Below, piece after piece: positions 119 through 28,725 of a stretch of DNA of 30,015 nt; position 1 is the stretch's first letter; each line of letters begins with the position of its first letter. The DNA comes from a virus, in IMG/VR virus record IMGVR_UViG_3300032242_001879, positions 1-30,015 of that record; one strand, given 5' to 3'. Below the pieces are notes generated by a model that was given only the letters and a program-made list of their open reading frames with translations, made no database searches and was not told the origin of the DNA. The position numbers and the translations under genes were made by a program.

Positions 119-406
119 ATGGCTAAAGTAATTCAAGAACCAGAGCAAATAGGAAGTGGCGTAACAGCTAGTGTAACTAACGTACTTGCTAGAATAGTTG
201 CTGTTTTTGCTGCTTCTGGATTAAGCATAATAGGTGCTGGTGCAGTTGTTGGAATAAGCACTGTTAAAGCTGTAGTTTTAGCTGGAACATTAGGGGTAGC
301 CACAGTGGTTGAAAAACTTGCTCGTGGATTCCTAGATGATGGCAAATTAACAGTTAAAGAAATAAATGCCGCATTTAGATCAGTGGATAAAAGATCTGAA
401 ATATAG
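119..406 (+). CDS. Small holin-like membrane protein
   Basis: A 95-residue protein starting 4 nt after the previous stop, with the strong site AAAGGAAAGGAG upstream. Residues about 20-65 are almost entirely hydrophobic or small (two possible membrane helices separated near GIST), followed by an amphipathic, charged C-terminus (EKLARGFLDDGKLTVKEI and onward). Small size, two hydrophobic segments and a charged tail are what phage holins look like, so holin is the best guess. Its position directly ahead of the prohead protease is unusual for a lysis gene, so another membrane role cannot be excluded. It is followed by a hairpin, which suggests it ends a transcription unit. Confidence 0.6.
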   Translation: MAKVIQEPEQIGSGVTASVTNVLARIVAVFAASGLSIIGAGAVVGISTVKAVVLAGTLGVATVVEKLARGFLDDGKLTVKEINAAFRSVDKRSEI

Positions 407-7107: not shown

Positions 7108-7446
7108 TTGGCAACAACAGTATATAACATTGAAGAAATTTCACTACGTGATGGAACAACAGTCACATTAAAACCGCTGCCTATCAAGCAGCTAAGAAAG
7201 TTTATGGAAATTATTAATCAGGGTCAAGTTGCAGAAAATGAAAATCCAGATGCAGCACTTGACATATTTATTGAAGCATGCATGCTTTGCTTACTTACAA
7301 CTGAAAGACCCGAGCTTGGTACAGATAGAGATAAGTTTGAAGAAGTAATTGAGACTCCTACAATGATGAAAATTCTTGAAATTATTGGTGGATTGAATCT
7401 TACAGACCCAAACCTACTGGGAGCGGCACTAGTTGGGACGAACTAG
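7108..7446 (+). CDS. Tail assembly chaperone, short (unshifted) form
   Basis: A 112-residue protein starting at TTG with AAAGGAG 7 nt upstream. No ATG is better placed. The sequence opens with a beta hairpin (ISLRDGTTVTLKPLP) and then helices (IKQLRKFMEIINQ, LDIFIEACMLCLLTTERPEL). This is the pattern of the G-type chaperone that coats the tape measure during tail assembly. It lies between the tail tube and tape measure genes. A TAG at 7444-7446 ends this form, and a slippery heptamer at 7407-7413 diverts some ribosomes to the -1 frame. Confidence 0.8.
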   Translation: MATTVYNIEEISLRDGTTVTLKPLPIKQLRKFMEIINQGQVAENENPDAALDIFIEACMLCLLTTERPELGTDRDKFEEVIETPTMMKILEIIGGLNLTDPNLLGAALVGTN

Positions 7447-7736
7447 ATCTACGCTCCTTGGAGTCCGAAGTATTCTTGTTAGGTCAATGGAAAAACTTTG
7501 ACGAACTAGAATCTAGCCTTTCACTTGAAGAGCTAACAGCTTTGTTAGAAATTTCAAGAAAGAAAAGCTATGAAGATAAAAAGTTTTTGGCTGCAATAAA
7601 TGGAGTAGAGCTAGAAGATGAAGTATCAGAAGAAGAAAATTCTGACATCTTAGAACTACAAGGTTATGCAGCATCACGTGAAGGCTTTGGTATAGATCAA
7701 GGACTCGGTGCAATGACTATGGGGGAGGATGAGTAA
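7108..7736 (+). CDS. Tail assembly chaperone, -1 frameshift (G-T type) form
   Basis: The product joins 7108-7413 to 7413-7736 (the base at 7413 is read twice) and gives 209 residues. The shift occurs at CCCAAAC, read C CCA AAC in the first frame and CCC AAA after slipping. The -1 frame then runs PTGSGTSWDELDLRSLESEV into an acidic helical domain (ELESSLSLEELTALLEIS) that has no usable start of its own: the first in-frame initiation-type codon is a TTG at 7458 with no Shine-Dalgarno. This arrangement is conserved in long-tailed phages, where the longer form bridges the tape measure and tail tube subunits. The stop overlaps the tape measure start by one base. Confidence 0.85.
7407..7413 (+). 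other. -1 programmed frameshift slippery heptamer CCCAAAC
   Basis: The heptamer fits X XXY YYZ in the correct phase for a -1 shift between the two chaperone frames. A 6-bp stem CTAGTT (7429-7434)/AACTAG (7441-7446) with a 6-nt loop lies 15 nt downstream. That is farther than the usual stimulatory spacing, and its role is uncertain. Confidence 0.85.
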
Positions 7737-10700
7737 TGGCAAAAGTTGAATTAAACATTGTCGCACTTGGCGATTTCTCATCAGTACAAAATCAGTTAAA
7801 AGCTTTGCAAGAACAAGTTGCAATGTTGCAAAAAGGCTTGGCTGGTGTTGGTGTTAGCTCAACCATATCTAAAGATTTACAAAGTTTAAATACACAGTTT
7901 AAACAAACAATGCTTTCCACTGGACAGTTTACTGCAGCAACAGTTGCTATGCAAACAGAAACAGCAAAGTTTGGAAATGAACTTGCAACAGGTAAATTAA
8001 AACTTACTGATTATTATAATATAATTAAAATGCGTTCATCTGAGGCAGTAACTCAGTTTAAAGCACTTGCACTTGAACAAACAAAATTACAAAATTCAAT
8101 TATAATGAATGATCCCACAAAAACTGGGATACTTAATGTTTATACGCCTACTCAAATTAATAAAGTTGCTAATGCAACTAAAATAGCAGCAAATGAAGCT
8201 AACCTTTATGCAATTGCAGTTAATAAAGGAACACAAGCATTAACCAATTTTGGTAAAAATACACAATGGGCGGGTCGTCAGCTAACAGTTGGTATGTCGG
8301 TTCCATTAATGATATTTGGTCAGCAAGCAACTCAAGTTTTTACAGATGTAAATAATGAATTAACTAGATTAGCAAAAGTTTATGGAACAGGATTAACACA
8401 GCCTTCACAGCAAGCACTTGATGCAATTAAATCACAGGTTACTGGGTTATCAAGAGAACTTGCTGGTAGCATGGGTATTGCTGCAAAAGATACAGCAGCA
8501 ATGGCAGCAGATTTAGCTGCTACTGGAAAAACTGGAAATGATCTTCTTGTTGCAACAAGAGAAGCCATGAGGCTTTCAAAATTAGGCGAACTTGACACTC
8601 AGTCAGCAATGAAAGCAACAGTATCATTGCAAAATGTTTATAAGTTAAGTACACAAGAACTGTCTGGAGCAGTAGATTTTCTTAACGCTGTTGAAAACCA
8701 AACATCAACAAGCTTGCAAGATTTAGTTGATGGTATACCACGTGTAGGACCAATTGTTCAACAGCTCGGAGGATCTTTTAAAGATACGGCTGTAATGATG
8801 GTAGCAATGAAAGAAGCGGGAGTACCAGCAGCTCAATCTGCTAACGCTATTAAATCTGCTATTGCTTCATTAATTAATCCTACAGTAGGGGCACAAAAAG
8901 CTTTTGCTGCATTTCATATAAACTTAAAAGGTATAGCAGCTTCAACTGGTGGAAATCCAGTAGAAATGATTATGCAACTACAAAAAGCATTAAAGGGTCT
9001 TGCACCACTAGCACAAGCACAATTAATAGAAAAGCTTTTTGGAAAGTTTCAAGAAGCAAGAATTCAAGCACTTATTACAAATTTAGGTGCTGCAAATAGC
9101 CAAACAAAAACAGCTTTTGAACTTATGAATGCTAATAGCAAGCAGTTATCTTCTGTTGCAGCAGGCGAAATGAAAACTGCAACCGATTCAACAACTGGAA
9201 GATATCAAAGAGCTTTGCAAACATTTAAAGCAGATCTTATTCCAGTAGGACAAAAAGTTGTAGAATTTGCAACTAAACTTATGAACTTTGGAAATGCAGT
9301 TGCTAATGTATTTTCAAAGCTTCCAGGACCACTACAATCAATTGCTGGATTTTTAGCCATAGGAACAGTTCTTGCTGGACCTATAATTATGTTAACTGGT
9401 TTGCTTGCTAACTTTGCGGGATTCTTAATAAAAGGTGTATTTAATATTAAGCAACTTGTTACTGGCGGTAAAACAATTGGTCAAATATTAACTCCAGAGT
9501 TTATAGCAGCACAAAATGCTTCAAAAGCATTTGGAACTAATATTGTAAGCAACGTCAGTGAAATTGAATTATTGTCAAAATCTATTGCAGATCTAACTAG
9601 AAATATAGAAGCAATGGTTTCATCAATGAATGTAGGGACAAATATATCATCATTGTCAAGCATGGTAGGCGGACTTGCTAAATCAGAAATAAGAACTTAT
9701 GAACAAATGAAGTTACCAGGATTTGCATCTGGCGGTGTTGTCCCAGGATCTGGAAATCAAGATACATTCCCAGCAATGTTAACTCCAGGTGAATCTATAA
9801 TACCAAAAGGCCCATCAGCAAAATATGCCCCATTAATTCAAGCAATGATATCTGGAAATCTTCCACATTTTAGTAAAGGTGCAAAAAAAGTAAAAAGAGA
9901 TGCTTCTGGTCAGTGGGTTCCTACCACAGATGACGACCCACTAGGAGAAGAAGTTACCTCAGAACTAATGCATCTTCAACCAAACGAAGCTGCCAATACA
10001 AGCTGGTTGCAAAAAGCAAGAGCAGCATTACATCTTCAAATAAATTCAAAAGGAAATCCATCGCTGGATCAAGTTAATGAAGTTGAGCCTACTTTTATGG
10101 TTCCAGGCCCAGGTCCTGTAAATCAAGCAACTAGATCAGATCGTGAAGGAATGTTGGGTTCTGAAATAGCAGATAATTATCGAAAATTTTTGGCAGCTGG
10201 AATAAAACCTATTGAATATATAGCAGAAGTAATGAGAAAACTTGGTATACCTTTAAAGGATATTGAAGAGCAACATGTTCCAAAATTAGAAGCAGCTTTT
10301 GAAAGTTTGATAAGAAAGCTAGAAACTGATAGTAAGAATGTACGTTTTGGAACAAATAAAGATATGGCAATTCATCCAGGGGAAACAAATGGCGGTTCTT
10401 TTGAATCTGAATATTATAAAGGTATGGAACAACCATTATCAGAAATTGAAGCAGTAGGAGCAAAAACTGGCAGAAGAATTTCCTTAAAAGAAATCTATAA
10501 TCGTGTTCTTTCAACAAGGGGTGCTTCTGCAGCAAGAAGAAAAGATAGAAAATACAACCCAGAAGATAAATCAAACACTGGTCAACCTGTAGTAATTCAA
10601 GATGATGGTTCTTTAGCTTCTTATGACGATAGTTTTATGGCAGAAGAATTTTCAGGAATTCATGCTAACATGTTTACAACAGGGGGAAGTTCACCATCCT

Positions 10701-13700
10701 TATTAAAAAGATTAGGTTTAAAGCAATCAAAATCAAGCAAGCCTAAATTACCAAAAGCAGTTGCTTATGATATAGATGAAACTCTTGCAAAAACCAAAGG
10801 TATAAATCAGCCAGGTGAATCCTGGATAGATGCAACAGCTAACGCAGAACCAATACCAGAAGAAGTTGCAAGATTAAATAAAATAAGAGAAAAAGGCCAT
10901 AAGATAATTATCTTAACGGCAAGAACAGAACATCATCAAGCACAAACAGAGGCCTGGCTCAAAGCAAATGATATTCCTTATGATGAACTAGTCATGAGAG
11001 AAAAAGGAAATAATTCTCCTGATGGTGAATTTAAAAAATCAGCATTGCAAAGATTGCAAGGTAGATTTAGAATTAAAGGTTTGGTAGATGATAAACAAGA
11101 AAATCTTAATGCAGCAAAATCTTTAGGTATTAAAGGAATGCCAGCATTAAATGGTATTAGTGATGAAGCAGAAAAAGCAGGTAAATCCGCTACAAAAAGT
11201 TATGCTAAAGGAATTGAAAGTGAGAAGGCTGCTGTAGAAAAAGCAGCTTCAGATGTTGCTCATGCAGCAACCGTTGCAATTGCAAGTACTCAGAGAAGTG
11301 CTTCTAAGTCAAAAGTAACAGAACAACTAGGTTTTGATTTTGGTGATGGTTACGATTATGGAATACAACAGTCAATTCCTAATGCCACCGCTGCTGGTGA
11401 AAAGCTTGCAACAGGAGCTATAACTGGAGTAGAAGAAGCAGGTGGTCCAATTGGCCCATTAATGGAAAATGGTAAGTTTACAAATAACTCTGGCATTCTT
11501 GGAAAAATAAAAGGTAAAGTTTTAAATGCTGAAGGAAAGATGAACATTCAATCAAGAATGGCAGCATCTACTGCTTTAATGATGGGCGGAAGTGCAATTG
11601 AAGGAATGCTTCCAAAAGGAAGTAATTTAAGTAATATATCTGGATCTATTTCAAATATGGCAGGCATGGGAATGATGTTTGGCCCATGGGGTGCTGCTGC
11701 AGGAGCAGCAATAGGATTAGTAACTGGTAGTGTTGGTGCGTTAATGAAAGCAGAAAAAGAGCACCAAGCAACAGTAAAAGCAACATTTACAGCAAGTGGA
11801 GATGTAATATCTGCATACGGCGGTAAAATGATTGAAGCTACACAAGCTGTATATAATTTTAATACTGCATCAAAACAAACAATTGCAACATTAAGTAAAA
11901 CAGCACAAGATGTAGCTGCAATTAATAAAGCACAATCTGACAATCCTTTGAAAGAAGTTGGCAATTTAATAAAAGGATTTGATACGGCAAGTAGTGTAAT
12001 AGGAACAGTTAAAACATTTGCAGCCGCACAAGTTGCTGCTGGCATGGATCCAAAACAAGTTTCTCAAATGGTTATAGATTTATTAACTTATGCAGGAAAA
12101 ACTCAATATCTAAATGCAGCACTAAAAGAAATTAATGCTGGAACAAAAGATATGACTACTGCAACAACAACTTGGCTTAATAAATTAAAAAATACAAGCG
12201 ATGCTTCAACAATAACTGCCACAAAATATTCAGATATGAGCAAATCTCAAAAAGCATATGCTGATGGATTGCTTACAACAACAAATATTATATCTAGTCA
12301 AAGTACTCCAATTGAAGTAGTATTGTCAAAAATTAAATCTTTATCTGATGCAAGCAATCAAAGTGCTTCTTCAGTCAACGGTCTAGCATTAGCATTACAA
12401 AATGCAGGTGCAGCAGCAGGAACAGTTTCTCAAGTAACTCAATGGGCTGCAATGGGCATAACAAATATGGGTGAAGTTGCAATGATGTTAAGATTATCAG
12501 CTGCTGGATTTACTAATTTAAATAGTAAAAATGCTGCTGATTTAACTAAAGCTGTAACAACAGATATAGTTAAAATGGTTGAAGATCAATCTGCTGCTTC
12601 AATTAAATCAGCACAAGAAAGATATGATTCAGAAGTTAAGAAATATAATGCTGCAGTAGCAGCTCAAAAAGCAGCAGCAGCAGCAGCAATTACAAAAGCA
12701 AAACAAGCAGAAATAGACGCACTAGGTAAATCTGGTGCAGCACAATATGATAGCGATAAAAAGTTATTAAAGGTAAAAGAAGCACAGTTAAATACTTTAA
12801 AGTTGCAAACTGCAGAATTGCAAAAACAACAACAGTATCAAATGACTCAGCAAGACCTAGATTCACAAATGAAACTTGCAGAAGTTTCAGGAGATTATTT
12901 AAAAGCTGCAGGACTACAACAACAAAAAAATTATACAGCATCACAATTTGGATCTGATAAGCAACAAACTGCTTTGCAATCTGAAATAGATATGTTAAAG
13001 AGCTCTATAGCCGATTCAGAACTTAAAATATCCAGCCACCAATCGTCTACTAGTACAGGTAGCCCAGTAGATAATAGTGGTGTTGTTATGGCTAAAGCAG
13101 CACTTGATATTGCTAAACAATCGGGTAATGTTAAAAATATGGTTATTGACATAAATAAATATTTATCAGATTCTGGATTAACGGGATTTAAAGCTGTAAT
13201 TGATGGAAAAGGTGCAATTCACGTAATAGTTGATAGTGGAAAATTAAGTATAACTGGAACTTCTGATAATATACCAGGAAGTATAAGTGCGCCTGTCAAT
13301 GCTTCTCAAGCAGAAAGCTATGCAACATTGCATAAAAATTTTGGAGCACCAGTATATGATAAATCAACAGGTGCATTATCAACATACACAGGCGGTACAA
13401 ACGAAGGAGTAAACGTTGCAACAACGGTTGCACATGACTTAGGGTTTAAAAAAGATACTTACTTTAAATGGTTTAATCCAAAAACTTTGACATATGATTA
13501 TTATTTTTATTCTGCTAAAAAAGACGATGCTATTAGGCTTGACCCAAATACGCCAGGACTTCCAACAAAAGCAAATGGTGGCTTAATATCAAATTATGCT
13601 GCTGGCAGCTTTGGTGGAGTAAAAGGGCCAGGAACTGGAACATCAGATTCAATTCTTGCGAGGGTTTCAAATGGAGAATATGTAATTAAAGCAGATGCAG

Positions 13701-13957
13701 TAGCACATTACGGATTAGGCTTTTTTGATTCTATAAATGCAAAGAAATTTGGTGCAAGTATACCAAATTCTAGCCCCAGATTCTCGGCGGTGTCTGGTCA
13801 AGATATTAATGCAAATTCTACCAGCACAGTGTATAATATTAATATGAACGTAAATAGCAATGCTTCTGATCCAAAAGCAGTTGCTGATTATGTTATGAGT
13901 CAACTTACAGTTGCAACAGCAAAGAAAAATGTTACTAATATAATTGGGAGAAATTAA
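7736..13957 (+). CDS. Tape measure protein with embedded HAD phosphatase domain
   Basis: A 2073-residue protein, the longest gene, following the chaperone pair with GGGGGAGG upstream. Residues 1-170 are coiled-coil-like. About 170-500 resemble the TP901/PhageMin tail core (RQLTVGMSVPLMIFGQQATQ). About 531-570 is strongly hydrophobic. A Gly-rich motif GFASGGVVPGSG with MLTPGESIIPK begins at 662, and a related GPGTGTSDSI/NGEYVIK motif lies at 1963-1993; both are common in tape measures. Between them, about 1005-1135, is a HAD phosphatase domain: DIDET 1012-1016, LTAR 1060-1063, Lys1100/1101 and Asp1118-Asp1119. A second hydrophobic, Met/Gly-rich segment spans 1275-1337, and a long coiled coil 1614-1760. 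At 1.5 angstroms per residue the upper limit for the tail is about 310 nm; inserted domains would shorten it. Confidence 0.9.
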   Translation: MAKVELNIVALGDFSSVQNQLKALQEQVAMLQKGLAGVGVSSTISKDLQSLNTQFKQTMLSTGQFTAATVAMQTETAKFGNELATGKLKLTDYYNIIKMRSSEAVTQFKALALEQTKLQNSIIMNDPTKTGILNVYTPTQINKVANATKIAANEANLYAIAVNKGTQALTNFGKNTQWAGRQLTVGMSVPLMIFGQQATQVFTDVNNELTRLAKVYGTGLTQPSQQALDAIKSQVTGLSRELAGSMGIAAKDTAAMAADLAATGKTGNDLLVATREAMRLSKLGELDTQSAMKATVSLQNVYKLSTQELSGAVDFLNAVENQTSTSLQDLVDGIPRVGPIVQQLGGSFKDTAVMMVAMKEAGVPAAQSANAIKSAIASLINPTVGAQKAFAAFHINLKGIAASTGGNPVEMIMQLQKALKGLAPLAQAQLIEKLFGKFQEARIQALITNLGAANSQTKTAFELMNANSKQLSSVAAGEMKTATDSTTGRYQRALQTFKADLIPVGQKVVEFATKLMNFGNAVANVFSKLPGPLQSIAGFLAIGTVLAGPIIMLTGLLANFAGFLIKGVFNIKQLVTGGKTIGQILTPEFIAAQNASKAFGTNIVSNVSEIELLSKSIADLTRNIEAMVSSMNVGTNISSLSSMVGGLAKSEIRTYEQMKLPGFASGGVVPGSGNQDTFPAMLTPGESIIPKGPSAKYAPLIQAMISGNLPHFSKGAKKVKRDASGQWVPTTDDDPLGEEVTSELMHLQPNEAANTSWLQKARAALHLQINSKGNPSLDQVNEVEPTFMVPGPGPVNQATRSDREGMLGSEIADNYRKFLAAGIKPIEYIAEVMRKLGIPLKDIEEQHVPKLEAAFESLIRKLETDSKNVRFGTNKDMAIHPGETNGGSFESEYYKGMEQPLSEIEAVGAKTGRRISLKEIYNRVLSTRGASAARRKDRKYNPEDKSNTGQPVVIQDDGSLASYDDSFMAEEFSGIHANMFTTGGSSPSLLKRLGLKQSKSSKPKLPKAVAYDIDETLAKTKGINQPGESWIDATANAEPIPEEVARLNKIREKGHKIIILTARTEHHQAQTEAWLKANDIPYDELVMREKGNNSPDGEFKKSALQRLQGRFRIKGLVDDKQENLNAAKSLGIKGMPALNGISDEAEKAGKSATKSYAKGIESEKAAVEKAASDVAHAATVAIASTQRSASKSKVTEQLGFDFGDGYDYGIQQSIPNATAAGEKLATGAITGVEEAGGPIGPLMENGKFTNNSGILGKIKGKVLNAEGKMNIQSRMAASTALMMGGSAIEGMLPKGSNLSNISGSISNMAGMGMMFGPWGAAAGAAIGLVTGSVGALMKAEKEHQATVKATFTASGDVISAYGGKMIEATQAVYNFNTASKQTIATLSKTAQDVAAINKAQSDNPLKEVGNLIKGFDTASSVIGTVKTFAAAQVAAGMDPKQVSQMVIDLLTYAGKTQYLNAALKEINAGTKDMTTATTTWLNKLKNTSDASTITATKYSDMSKSQKAYADGLLTTTNIISSQSTPIEVVLSKIKSLSDASNQSASSVNGLALALQNAGAAAGTVSQVTQWAAMGITNMGEVAMMLRLSAAGFTNLNSKNAADLTKAVTTDIVKMVEDQSAASIKSAQERYDSEVKKYNAAVAAQKAAAAAAITKAKQAEIDALGKSGAAQYDSDKKLLKVKEAQLNTLKLQTAELQKQQQYQMTQQDLDSQMKLAEVSGDYLKAAGLQQQKNYTASQFGSDKQQTALQSEIDMLKSSIADSELKISSHQSSTSTGSPVDNSGVVMAKAALDIAKQSGNVKNMVIDINKYLSDSGLTGFKAVIDGKGAIHVIVDSGKLSITGTSDNIPGSISAPVNASQAESYATLHKNFGAPVYDKSTGALSTYTGGTNEGVNVATTVAHDLGFKKDTYFKWFNPKTLTYDYYFYSAKKDDAIRLDPNTPGLPTKANGGLISNYAAGSFGGVKGPGTGTSDSILARVSNGEYVIKADAVAHYGLGFFDSINAKKFGASIPNSSPRFSAVSGQDINANSTSTVYNINMNVNSNASDPKAVADYVMSQLTVATAKKNVTNIIGRN
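10748..11141 (+). other. HAD/PNKP-phosphatase-like domain within the tape measure
   Basis: Codons about 1005-1135 of the tape measure encode all four HAD motifs in order: motif I YDIDETLA (nucleophile Asp1012, acid/base Asp1014), motif II LTAR (Thr1061), motif III Lys (1100 or 1101) and motif IV VDD (Asp1118-1119). KGHKIIILTAR, TEAWLKANDIPYDELVMR and the following Lys resemble the phosphatase half of bacterial and phage polynucleotide kinase-phosphatases. The surrounding 720-1000 region is polar and unlike the rest of the tape measure. Confidence 0.78.
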
Positions 13958-25071: not shown

Positions 25072-25206
25072 ATGGCATTTTTTGCAAAACAGGGCAGTAC
25101 ATGGAAAACTGCTACTAAATTTTTTGTTAAACAAGGCAGTACATGGAAGCCAATATTAAAAGCTTATATAAAACAAGGGGCAAATTGGGTTCAATTTTGG
25201 CCTAAA
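25072..25206 (+). repeat. Three 14-residue N-terminal repeats (KQG-x-x-W)
   Basis: KQGSTWK (6-12), KQGSTWK (20-26) and KQGANWV (34-40) are spaced by exactly 14 residues. At the DNA level the first two units share GGCAGTACATGGAA. Confidence 0.85.
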
Positions 25207-28200
25207 TCAGGACCATATACAACAACTGCTCCATATTTTTCAACAGATACTTCAGGCAATAGCACACCCGCTGGATTTACATTAAGTGTAGGTTCAACAT
25301 ATTATTTGCAAAAAGGAGTTTGGGTTGGAAATGGTGGAACAATATCTTCGTATGTATCAAATATTTATACAACTCCAAATTCTGATGCAAATACTGGAGG
25401 ATTAACACTTACCTCTGGCCCAACAAGTTTAATTAATTATACATCAATAACATTAAATGCAGCAACATATGATGGATTTTATATTGTTGGACAAATAAAT
25501 GCAACAAGAACAGATGGTATTGTAGGTACTGATACAACTGATTCAAACGGATATAGATATTTTGTTATGAGAAAATATTCTCCAAAAAAAACAAACACTC
25601 CTACTATTACTTCACAATCTAGTTTGACCGAATCTTCTGTAACGGGGGGGGATTTAGTTTTAAGAGGATCGCCAACAACTCTTGCATATAAAGGGTATTG
25701 GGATGGCACATCAGATTATTTGCCAGATAGCACAAGAAGCTTTGTCACATGGTATTCAAGTACTAATGGATCCTATACTACATCAGATCAAATTATTGCA
25801 AATGCTACTTATGTTTCAGGATCATTATCTTCAGTAACAAATACTGGAGGTGTTTATACCGCATCTGCATCTATAACTTTAAATACTATTACAAGTGGAA
25901 CATATTACTATGCAGTTAATAATGAATATAATAGCAACTCAGACTGGAATGTTCAATTTGGAACAAATCCTCCTACAGCAATTGCAGTTATAGGTCCAAT
26001 TAAAACTTCACCACAATCAACTACTTATCCAACTTTAACATCTGTAACACCATCAGGATATAATACAGATAATAATTTTCCTGGCAATTCAAATTCATTT
26101 ATGGTTGGATCTACAATTACTGGAAATACAGGATCTTGGTCGCCAACTCCAAGCGGAGTAGCACCATTTTCTTCTGCCTTTTTGTATTCAAATTTAAGCA
26201 GTATATCTTTGTCAAATATATCAAGTTGGAAATATGTTACTCTTCCATCAAGTGTATACGGATTTTTTGGCGATGCATCACAAAATCAAAACCACTCATT
26301 TACTCTAGGAAGTTTAGTTGACACTTCAGTAAATTCAATAGGTAAATATTTATCATATGAAGTTTATACACAAGATGGAGATTTAACTTCAGCATTGTCA
26401 GAATTTTATACTACTCCAAAATTATTGCATGATAAACCACACACAACAAATATTGGCGGGATTACCTATAGTCAATCAGATGGTTCATTATCTATAACAT
26501 CTTTAAGCTTCCCAGATAGCACAACATCTTATGCATATCAATTACAATATGCCCCATATCAAGGCTCATGGACCAACCTAGGTTCAATAAAATATCAAAG
26601 TAGTTTATCCTTAATTGGATATTCATATTTAAAATATGCAGCAGCATCCGTCCCGTCTGGAAACTATTATTACAGGATACTTGCATATAACGATGACAAT
26701 GTTTATATTGTAGGATCAACATACGGTCCAGTTAGTACTATAAAAATACCAGTAAATACAGTTGCTCCATATTGGACAGATACTTCAGGTAACTCAGTAT
26801 CTTCCCCGTATTATGCTGGAACGTATAGATTAAATTTTGGAACTTGGAGCAATAGCCCAACATATTATAGATATCAAATTTATTACAATAATCAAGCGGG
26901 AACAATAATAACTCAAGATTATTCAGACACATATACTAACAACTATGTTGACTATACATTTCCAATAAATACCAATACTATAAGTGCAAATGTTTATGCA
27001 GGCAATGCAGGTGCATTAAGTACTTTTGCATATCCTCCAACTTTTGGTCCAATTGTAGGAGTTCAAACAAAACCAACTTTAGGAACACCTACCTCTACTA
27101 CAGTTGGCTTTTATGTTTCAATAACCAATTATGATTCTGCTGCAACATACACTGTTAATCAAGTAAGTACAACAAGCACATCTACACCATCATATAGTGT
27201 ATCTGGATCAACTGTGTATGTTACAAATACATCCCCAAGTTCTAGCACATCTATAAATGTAACTGCAAGAAAAACGGGATATGTAGATTCTACATCAAAC
27301 ACAGTTTCCGCTACAACAATAGCACAGCCAGGAGCATTTACTTATTCTATTATAGATACTTCAGCAAACAGAGGTCCAAATACACCAGTCGTTACCTCCA
27401 GCGTTTCCAACAACGTACTTACATTAAATTGGTCAACAACAACACTTGCAGATCAATATAGAGAATATTTAACAGCTAAATCAGGAACACCAATTGCATA
27501 TAGTGGGTATTATCCAGGCGGTGCCACAAGCACATTTACATCAGACACATGGAATATTCAAGCAAGTGGAACAGAAACTATTACAGTTTATGCGTATAAT
27601 ACTTTAAATGGTCAAATTGCTGTAACATATGGCGGTTCGTCTAATGCAGATTATTATCAGATTTTATATCAAGTAGGAACGGGCGCAGTAACATTAAGCC
27701 CTAATTTAACAAGCGGAAATATATTTTTTATAAATGCTACAATAGGTACTGCAGTAACTATATATAGTGTTGTTGCTTGGAATAATGCAGGGGGAAGCGT
27801 TGGTGGAACTTTAAATGCTGCATCACCTCTAACCAGTCCAGCAACACCAACTACAAAGTCTACAAGCGTAACAAATGATTATGTTTTAACATATACCCCG
27901 CCATCATACACAGTAACATGGAATGCTAACGGAGGATCCGTTAGCCCTACAAGTTCAACAGTTACTGCTGGTGGCTCAGTTACAGCACCAACTCCAACTT
28001 TGTCTGGGTATACATTTAATGGTTGGTATGATTCAGCAAGCGGAGGTAAGCAACAGGTAACAGGCGGAGGCTCATATACACCTTCATCAAGCATTACTCT
28101 TTATGCACAATGGACAGCTATTATAGTAACCTATACAGTAACATGGAATGCTAACGGAGGATCCGTTAGCCCTACAAGTTCAACAGTTAATGCTGGTAGC

Positions 28201-28725
28201 TCAATCACAGCCCCAACCCCGACCCGCTCTGGGTACACAATGGCGGGATGGTACGATGCAGCAAGCGGTGGTAATTTAATTGTATCTTCTGGTTTTTCTT
28301 ACACACCTGGATCAAGTATAACTCTTTATGCACATTGGAATGTAGTTGTGTCTCCACCAAGTACGCCAACTTATAGTGCATATAATTATGGAACTTCAAC
28401 ACACACAGGTACGCCATCAATAACAATGTCATCTACAGGTGCTACAACAATTTATTATCAGGTTTGGAGAACTGCTACAGGCACAGGGGCACCAAATGGT
28501 TACGGAAATGGAACTTATACACAGGTATACCCAAATGGTGTGGGTGGCTACGCTAGTGTTAATGCATCTTCCGCTGTTGTAAATCTTGACACCATAATGT
28601 TAAATGGTACACTTGGTGCATATTCAAATGGATATTATTATGTTACGGCATACGGAAGTAACTCTGGTGGCAGCAGCTCAAGCTCAAATTCTCAAATATC
28701 TCCAAAGAACTGGTTCTATTACTAA
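25072..28725 (+). CDS. Large tail adhesin with InlB-type repeats
   Basis: A 1217-residue protein starting directly after the previous TAA with no gap. The N-terminus has three 14-residue repeats, KQG-x-x-W with Trp at 11, 25 and 39, a motif seen at the start of actinobacteriophage minor tail proteins and probably the attachment point. Most of the rest is Ser/Thr/Tyr-rich beta sequence with repeated Ig/FN3-like blocks. Two Listeria-Bacteroides (InlB B-type) repeats occupy about 946-1016 and 1021-1090, each with TVTWNANGGSVSP, GW-YD-ASGG and ITLYA-W. Such repeats occur in bacterial surface adhesins. A C-terminal 120-residue domain ends in SNSQISPKNWFYY. The role is host attachment by inference. 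It contains a G8 tract at 25644-25651. Confidence 0.75.
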   Translation: MAFFAKQGSTWKTATKFFVKQGSTWKPILKAYIKQGANWVQFWPKSGPYTTTAPYFSTDTSGNSTPAGFTLSVGSTYYLQKGVWVGNGGTISSYVSNIYTTPNSDANTGGLTLTSGPTSLINYTSITLNAATYDGFYIVGQINATRTDGIVGTDTTDSNGYRYFVMRKYSPKKTNTPTITSQSSLTESSVTGGDLVLRGSPTTLAYKGYWDGTSDYLPDSTRSFVTWYSSTNGSYTTSDQIIANATYVSGSLSSVTNTGGVYTASASITLNTITSGTYYYAVNNEYNSNSDWNVQFGTNPPTAIAVIGPIKTSPQSTTYPTLTSVTPSGYNTDNNFPGNSNSFMVGSTITGNTGSWSPTPSGVAPFSSAFLYSNLSSISLSNISSWKYVTLPSSVYGFFGDASQNQNHSFTLGSLVDTSVNSIGKYLSYEVYTQDGDLTSALSEFYTTPKLLHDKPHTTNIGGITYSQSDGSLSITSLSFPDSTTSYAYQLQYAPYQGSWTNLGSIKYQSSLSLIGYSYLKYAAASVPSGNYYYRILAYNDDNVYIVGSTYGPVSTIKIPVNTVAPYWTDTSGNSVSSPYYAGTYRLNFGTWSNSPTYYRYQIYYNNQAGTIITQDYSDTYTNNYVDYTFPINTNTISANVYAGNAGALSTFAYPPTFGPIVGVQTKPTLGTPTSTTVGFYVSITNYDSAATYTVNQVSTTSTSTPSYSVSGSTVYVTNTSPSSSTSINVTARKTGYVDSTSNTVSATTIAQPGAFTYSIIDTSANRGPNTPVVTSSVSNNVLTLNWSTTTLADQYREYLTAKSGTPIAYSGYYPGGATSTFTSDTWNIQASGTETITVYAYNTLNGQIAVTYGGSSNADYYQILYQVGTGAVTLSPNLTSGNIFFINATIGTAVTIYSVVAWNNAGGSVGGTLNAASPLTSPATPTTKSTSVTNDYVLTYTPPSYTVTWNANGGSVSPTSSTVTAGGSVTAPTPTLSGYTFNGWYDSASGGKQQVTGGGSYTPSSSITLYAQWTAIIVTYTVTWNANGGSVSPTSSTVNAGSSITAPTPTRSGYTMAGWYDAASGGNLIVSSGFSYTPGSSITLYAHWNVVVSPPSTPTYSAYNYGTSTHTGTPSITMSSTGATTIYYQVWRTATGTGAPNGYGNGTYTQVYPNGVGGYASVNASSAVVNLDTIMLNGTLGAYSNGYYYVTAYGSNSGGSSSSSNSQISPKNWFYY
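25644..25651 (+). repeat. G8 homopolymer tract inside the adhesin gene
   Basis: Eight consecutive G bases encode Thr-Gly-Gly-Asp in a strongly AT-rich gene. It is the longest G run I found in the window. Confidence 0.9.
27910..28189 (+). repeat. Exact 55-bp direct repeat within the InlB-type repeats
   Basis: Bases 27910-27964 are identical to 28135-28189, an offset of 225 bp or 75 codons. Outside this core the two protein repeats differ at the DNA level, so the core is unusually well conserved. Confidence 0.9.

Follow-up and report, generated by a model that had tools for sequence, protein, structure and literature searches.

The window analyzed here, a 30,015-nucleotide stretch of virus record IMGVR_UViG_3300032242_001879, raises the question of why a phage tail tape measure protein (TMP) would carry a HAD phosphatase domain. 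To our knowledge, most enzymes found in TMPs are lysins that cut the wall, and one is an RNA polymerase. The ORF at 7736-13957 was recognized as the TMP by profile searches (PF10145, E 1.2e-33; phrog_10030, E 1.9e-108), by its size and by its place 3' of two tail-chaperone-like ORFs. These two ORFs (7108-7446 and 7458-7736) resemble a tail assembly chaperone pair linked by a -1 frameshift; the frame of the second stays open further upstream, with a sequence that recurs in contig L084. By eye, a 1217-aa protein (25072-28725) has InlB/Listeria-Bacteroides-type repeats in its C-terminal part, and the right contig end (29723-30013) holds a fragment of an HNH-like endonuclease. The features of the TMP gene are as follows.

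7736..13957, plus strand: TMP, 2073 aa, carrying the HAD domain (PF10145, phrog_10030)
9350..9406, plus strand: TM-like segment upstream of the cassette, residues 539-557 (Kyte-Doolittle scan)
9836..10744, plus strand: upstream cassette module, residues 701-1003, common to contigs L002, L077, L070 and L068
10748..11141, plus strand: HAD phosphatase domain, PNKP-phosphatase-like, residues ~1005-1135 (PF25109, AlphaFold2, Foldseek)
10769..10783, plus strand: motif I DIDET, residues 1012-1016, with predicted nucleophile Asp1012, predicted acid/base Asp1014, and Thr1016 (motif search)
10802..10804, plus strand: Ile1023, where PNKPs have a signature Arg (T4 R176) linked to specificity (T4 alignment)
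10913..10924, plus strand: motif II LTAR, residues 1060-1063, with Thr1061 and with Arg1063 corresponding to R213 of T4 Pnkp (T4 alignment)
11021..11035, plus strand: Asp1096 (T4 D254) and motif III Lys1100 (T4 K258) (T4 alignment)
from 11030, plus strand: FKKS, residues 1099-1102, with predicted catalytic Lys1100 (motif search)
11084..11095, plus strand: motif IV VDDK, residues 1117-1120, with Asp1118/Asp1119 and with Lys1120 replacing the PNKP Arg (alignment)
11690..11746, plus strand: TM-like segment downstream of the cassette, residues 1319-1337 (Kyte-Doolittle scan)

The initial annotation had placed a complete HAD domain inside the TMP, and profile and structure searches confirmed it. 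TMP residues 1006-1133 matched PF25109 (Pfam HAD_PNKP) with an E-value of 2.9e-14 and a score of 53.8 bits, where the gathering cut-off is 27.6 bits, and phrog_415 (PHROG 415) matched the domain at ~1e-28. An AlphaFold2 (AF2) model, computed from an alignment of 60 relatives, reached a pLDDT of 89.9 and a pTM of 0.82, and showed a Rossmann-like HAD core, in which strands and helices alternate. Its top match among solved structures was the 3'-phosphatase of T4 Pnkp (5uj0; TM 0.85 by target, rmsd 1.4, Foldseek E 1.5e-9), and ranks 1-6 of the Foldseek PDB search were occupied by PNKP phosphatases, including bacterial Pnkp1 (5uj0, 4xru, 4xrp and 1ltq). On the bit score, the phrog_415 match, the pLDDT and the Foldseek E-value, a chance match was rejected. 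A matching HAD fold was also seen in four BFVD records from uncultured phages annotated as prohead proteases (A0A6J5NAI8, A0A6J5MQJ8, A0A6J5S5M9 and A0A6J5R419), another virion-assembly protein bearing a similar domain.

HAD motifs I (DxD), II (T/S), III (K) and IV (DD) are all present in the correct order, and DIDET, LTAR, Lys1100 and Asp1118-Asp1119 were found at the residues first assigned to them. Alignment with T4 Pnkp pairs D165, D167, R213, D254, K258, D277 and D278 with D1012, D1014, R1063, D1096, K1100, D1118 and D1119, all of them conserved. Across the 60 aligned rows, D1012, D1014 and R1063 are invariant, the Lys1100 position is K in 59 and the Asp1096 position is D in 56. The initial annotation had named a missing HAD core and a substitution of Asp1012 or Asp1014 in relatives as the points on which its reading could fail; the core is there, and neither residue is replaced in any row.

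That annotation had further likened the domain to the phosphatase half of PNKPs, a likeness that held for fold and profile but not for 3'-end specificity. The domain shares with PNKP 3'-phosphatases (PF25109; T4 5uj0/1ltq, Pnkp1 4xrp) the fold, motifs I-IV, the equivalents of Arg213, Asp254 and Lys258, and the MR...D...K signature. It differs in having DIDET and DDK in place of DxDGT and DDR, and in lying within a tail protein; Pfam and PHROG profiles matched no linked kinase domain anywhere in the TMP. R176 of T4 Pnkp is essential; here its equivalent is Ile1023, and the GR(x)PY/F loop has no Arg in the window, L002 or L004. In the phylogeny, the kinase-linked PNKPs belong to a 43-row clade (97/93) from which the TMP domains are excluded, although long branches blur the exact place of these domains, and the NCBIfam DNA-3'-Pase model scored 14 of 107 bits, far below its cut-off. 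Because of Ile1023, the position outside the PNKP clade and this low score, we did not file the domain as a PNKP: judged by sequence and model, it is a predicted HAD phosphohydrolase with a PNKP-phosphatase-like fold, which deserves the name PNKP only in part. With R176 replaced, the kinase half missing and the clade position as described, nucleic-acid 3'-ends become one candidate substrate among several.

The same features bear on the idea of a true PNKP-type 3'-phosphatase that, as counter-defence, would mend the 3'-phosphate ends of either the entering phage DNA or RNA cleaved by host nucleases. The top profile and fold matches and the MR...D...K signature agree with it, and phage PNKPs are widespread (1829 records match), but the Arg-free loop, the tree, the missing kinase half and the NCBIfam score argue against it, as does the lack of a visible ligase partner in 30 kb of structural genes; we consider it unlikely. 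A second idea is that the enzyme dephosphorylates wall or membrane phosphates during TMP passage, much as TMP lysins act on peptidoglycan. Tail enzymes of other phages against wall polymers, including teichoic acids, have been proposed (PMC10194240), class B/C acid phosphatases were secondary matches of the domain in both profile and fold searches, and the two TM-like segments flank it. Its profile and fold are nevertheless nearer to nucleic-acid phosphatases, which makes an envelope enzyme distinctly unlikely.

We then considered how the domain is distributed. A scan of 2.9 million viral contigs found it in the TMPs of three further freshwater contigs, L002, L003 and L004, which form one lineage. 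Among 80 TMP loci no other TMP-borne HAD was found, an HMM search across all six frames of the examined loci gave no extra HAD in the cassettes, later HAD scans gave the same result, and 12 related contigs held no second PF25109 copy. A genome scan for the domain returned remote matches only. An assembly chimera was rejected because the frame is single and uninterrupted in all four contigs, the other three of which come from three different metagenomes. The best cultured relatives of the TMP are Streptomyces phages; a cultured fusion in Muntaha, Daubenski and Samisti12 was rejected, the HAD match there being a separate 'polynucleotide kinase' gene far from the TMP.

In a tree built from 61 TMP N-termini (49 distinct), all but two of the distinct proteins lack the domain, and well-supported branches impose two separate placements of it; L005, sister to the window (81%), and L080, sister to L002 (95%), are both without it. 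The L080 and L002 contigs are 87.5% identical in DNA over 12 kb up to the N-terminal part of the TMP; past this point their cassettes are unrelated, and the alignment resumes afterwards. L077 has the flanks of L002 and no HAD domain. The cassettes differ widely in length among related TMPs and are bordered at one end by the conserved PGE-VIP motif (~680) and at the other by an SPSK/FGPWG region; a TM-like segment lies on either side of the cassette. Judged by the tree and these alignments, the HAD domain is a module that entered the TMP by swapping. The upstream module (residues 701-1003) gave a low-confidence AF2 model (pLDDT 68.5) with no PDB fold match, and Pfam recognized no other known enzyme in 53 cassettes. 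The cassette at 9836-11150 and the equivalent TMP region in L005-L084 are hypervariable and swapped between near-identical phages; most of what they contain has no match among known domains, and further effectors may lie hidden there.

The window and the L002-L004 lineage are 73% identical over the HAD domain and 49% over the TMP N-terminus. Between the window and L002, the HAD domain had a dN/dS of 0.18, compared with 0.44 for the N-terminal 650 residues; the upstream cassette reached 0.80 and the downstream linker 1.44. These figures are indicative because dS is near saturation, the flank alignments are weak and, with just two distinct TMP-HAD lineages known, the estimate rests on one pair. 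The dS values of the domain (1.24) and the N-terminus (1.16) are similar and thus give no sign of recent exchange, and a dN/dS of 0.18 at equal dS suggests that the domain has been kept under constraint. By this indicative measure, it would be the most constrained part of the TMP, under strong purifying selection. An inert filler, that is, an enzyme fold taken up as length or spacer, would fit the variable cassettes and the absence of the domain from most relatives, but it would need neither invariant catalytic residues nor the highest constraint in the protein, and we regard it as very unlikely.

WhiB genes are typical of actinobacteria and their phages, and were found in 9 of the 14 related contigs tested, seven of the TMP family and two of a group with stand-alone HAD genes. 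Together with the Streptomyces phage relatives of the TMP, they make a freshwater actinobacterium the probable host. Stand-alone HAD cousins are common in lake phages (L097-L119, L194-L220). Like the TMP domain, they are phosphatase-only, carry LTAR and DDK motifs and, in the two contigs tested, occur with WhiB; unlike it, they are separate genes of ~150-165 aa beside a holin-like gene, with 31-37% identity to the TMP domain. In 32 of 38 loci, a stand-alone HAD is accompanied by a relative of window ORF 119-406, mostly as its direct neighbour. This small holin-like family (window 119-406; L098 6444-6785; L102 6440-6871) adjoins most of the stand-alone HAD genes of lake phages, with CHAP-type endolysin and proteasome-like Ntn-hydrolase genes as further neighbours by eye; the 118 bases at the left end of the window encode no stand-alone HAD. 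If the enzyme worked inside the cell that makes the virions, either late in infection or after being cleaved off, and not after ejection, this would suit the late or lysis-like setting of these distant cousins. There would then be no need to fuse it to a virion protein, however, and the cousins are only ~35% identical; we regard this too as very unlikely.

From the observed domain, its fold, its intact motifs, the selection on it and its patchy modular distribution, and by analogy with Thermus phage P23-45 for activity, delivery and substrate, we propose that the TMP carries a swappable, catalytically competent phosphohydrolase as cargo delivered at infection, a reading whose chances we put at about even. 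The central part of the TMP would be an exchangeable cargo cassette, which in two phage lineages includes the HAD phosphohydrolase. The domain would be made as part of the TMP and packed in the tail lumen. TMPs are thought to exit the tail at infection, forming a channel (PMC10770324); with the TMP leaving ahead of the DNA, the domain would be set free in the envelope or the cytoplasm of the host. There, with residue roles assigned from established HAD chemistry, Asp1012 would attack a phosphate monoester with Mg2+ and Asp1014 would serve as acid/base, while Thr1061 and Lys1100 would hold the phospho-Asp and Asp1118/1119 would bind the metal. The substrate would most likely be a small or terminal phosphomonoester, either a nucleotide or a nucleic-acid end. 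The initial annotation, too, had given entry into the cell and the role there as inference.

Against cargo delivery stand the 47 of 49 distinct TMPs in the family that do without the domain, and the missing PNKP substrate arginine. Whether several copies of a folded 130-residue domain fit the tail lumen is also doubtful, and partial unfolding or cleavage may occur. A wider form of the proposal, which we hold only tentatively and consider rather doubtful, makes the cassette a cargo bay of actinophages, different cassettes carrying different effectors into the cell; the one here would be a counter-defence phosphatase with a substrate of its own, which may be a signalling nucleotide or nuclease-generated ends. 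If cargo delivery is true, a conserved swappable TMP phosphatase would broaden the enzymes that phages may import with their DNA before phage gene expression, and the small size of the HAD domain makes its activity and delivery directly testable.

As read from profiles, model and alignments, the TMP contains a real, conserved and modular predicted phosphatase domain, and this extends the known TMPs with an enzyme domain. The TMP lysins, such as GH23 transglycosylases (PMC10194240), likewise have an enzyme domain within the TMP, but they cut peptidoglycan, whereas the window domain is a predicted phosphohydrolase. A search of the open literature found no paper on a TMP phosphatase. The initial annotation had held that such enzymes were not known as typical of TMPs, which has to be amended, since a TMP-fused RNA polymerase is established in P23-45, where it transcribes pre-early genes and the fusion is absent in some relatives (PMC10770324). 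By analogy, this fusion is the closest functional parallel and a precedent for a TMP enzyme acting at genome entry. In both P23-45 gp96 and the window, a catalytic domain lies within the TMP (here in a single open frame) and some close relatives lack it. The P23-45 RNA polymerase, however, is N-terminal in a 5002-aa TMP and its activity has been shown (PMC10770324), whereas the domain described here is a small predicted phosphatase in a central cassette.
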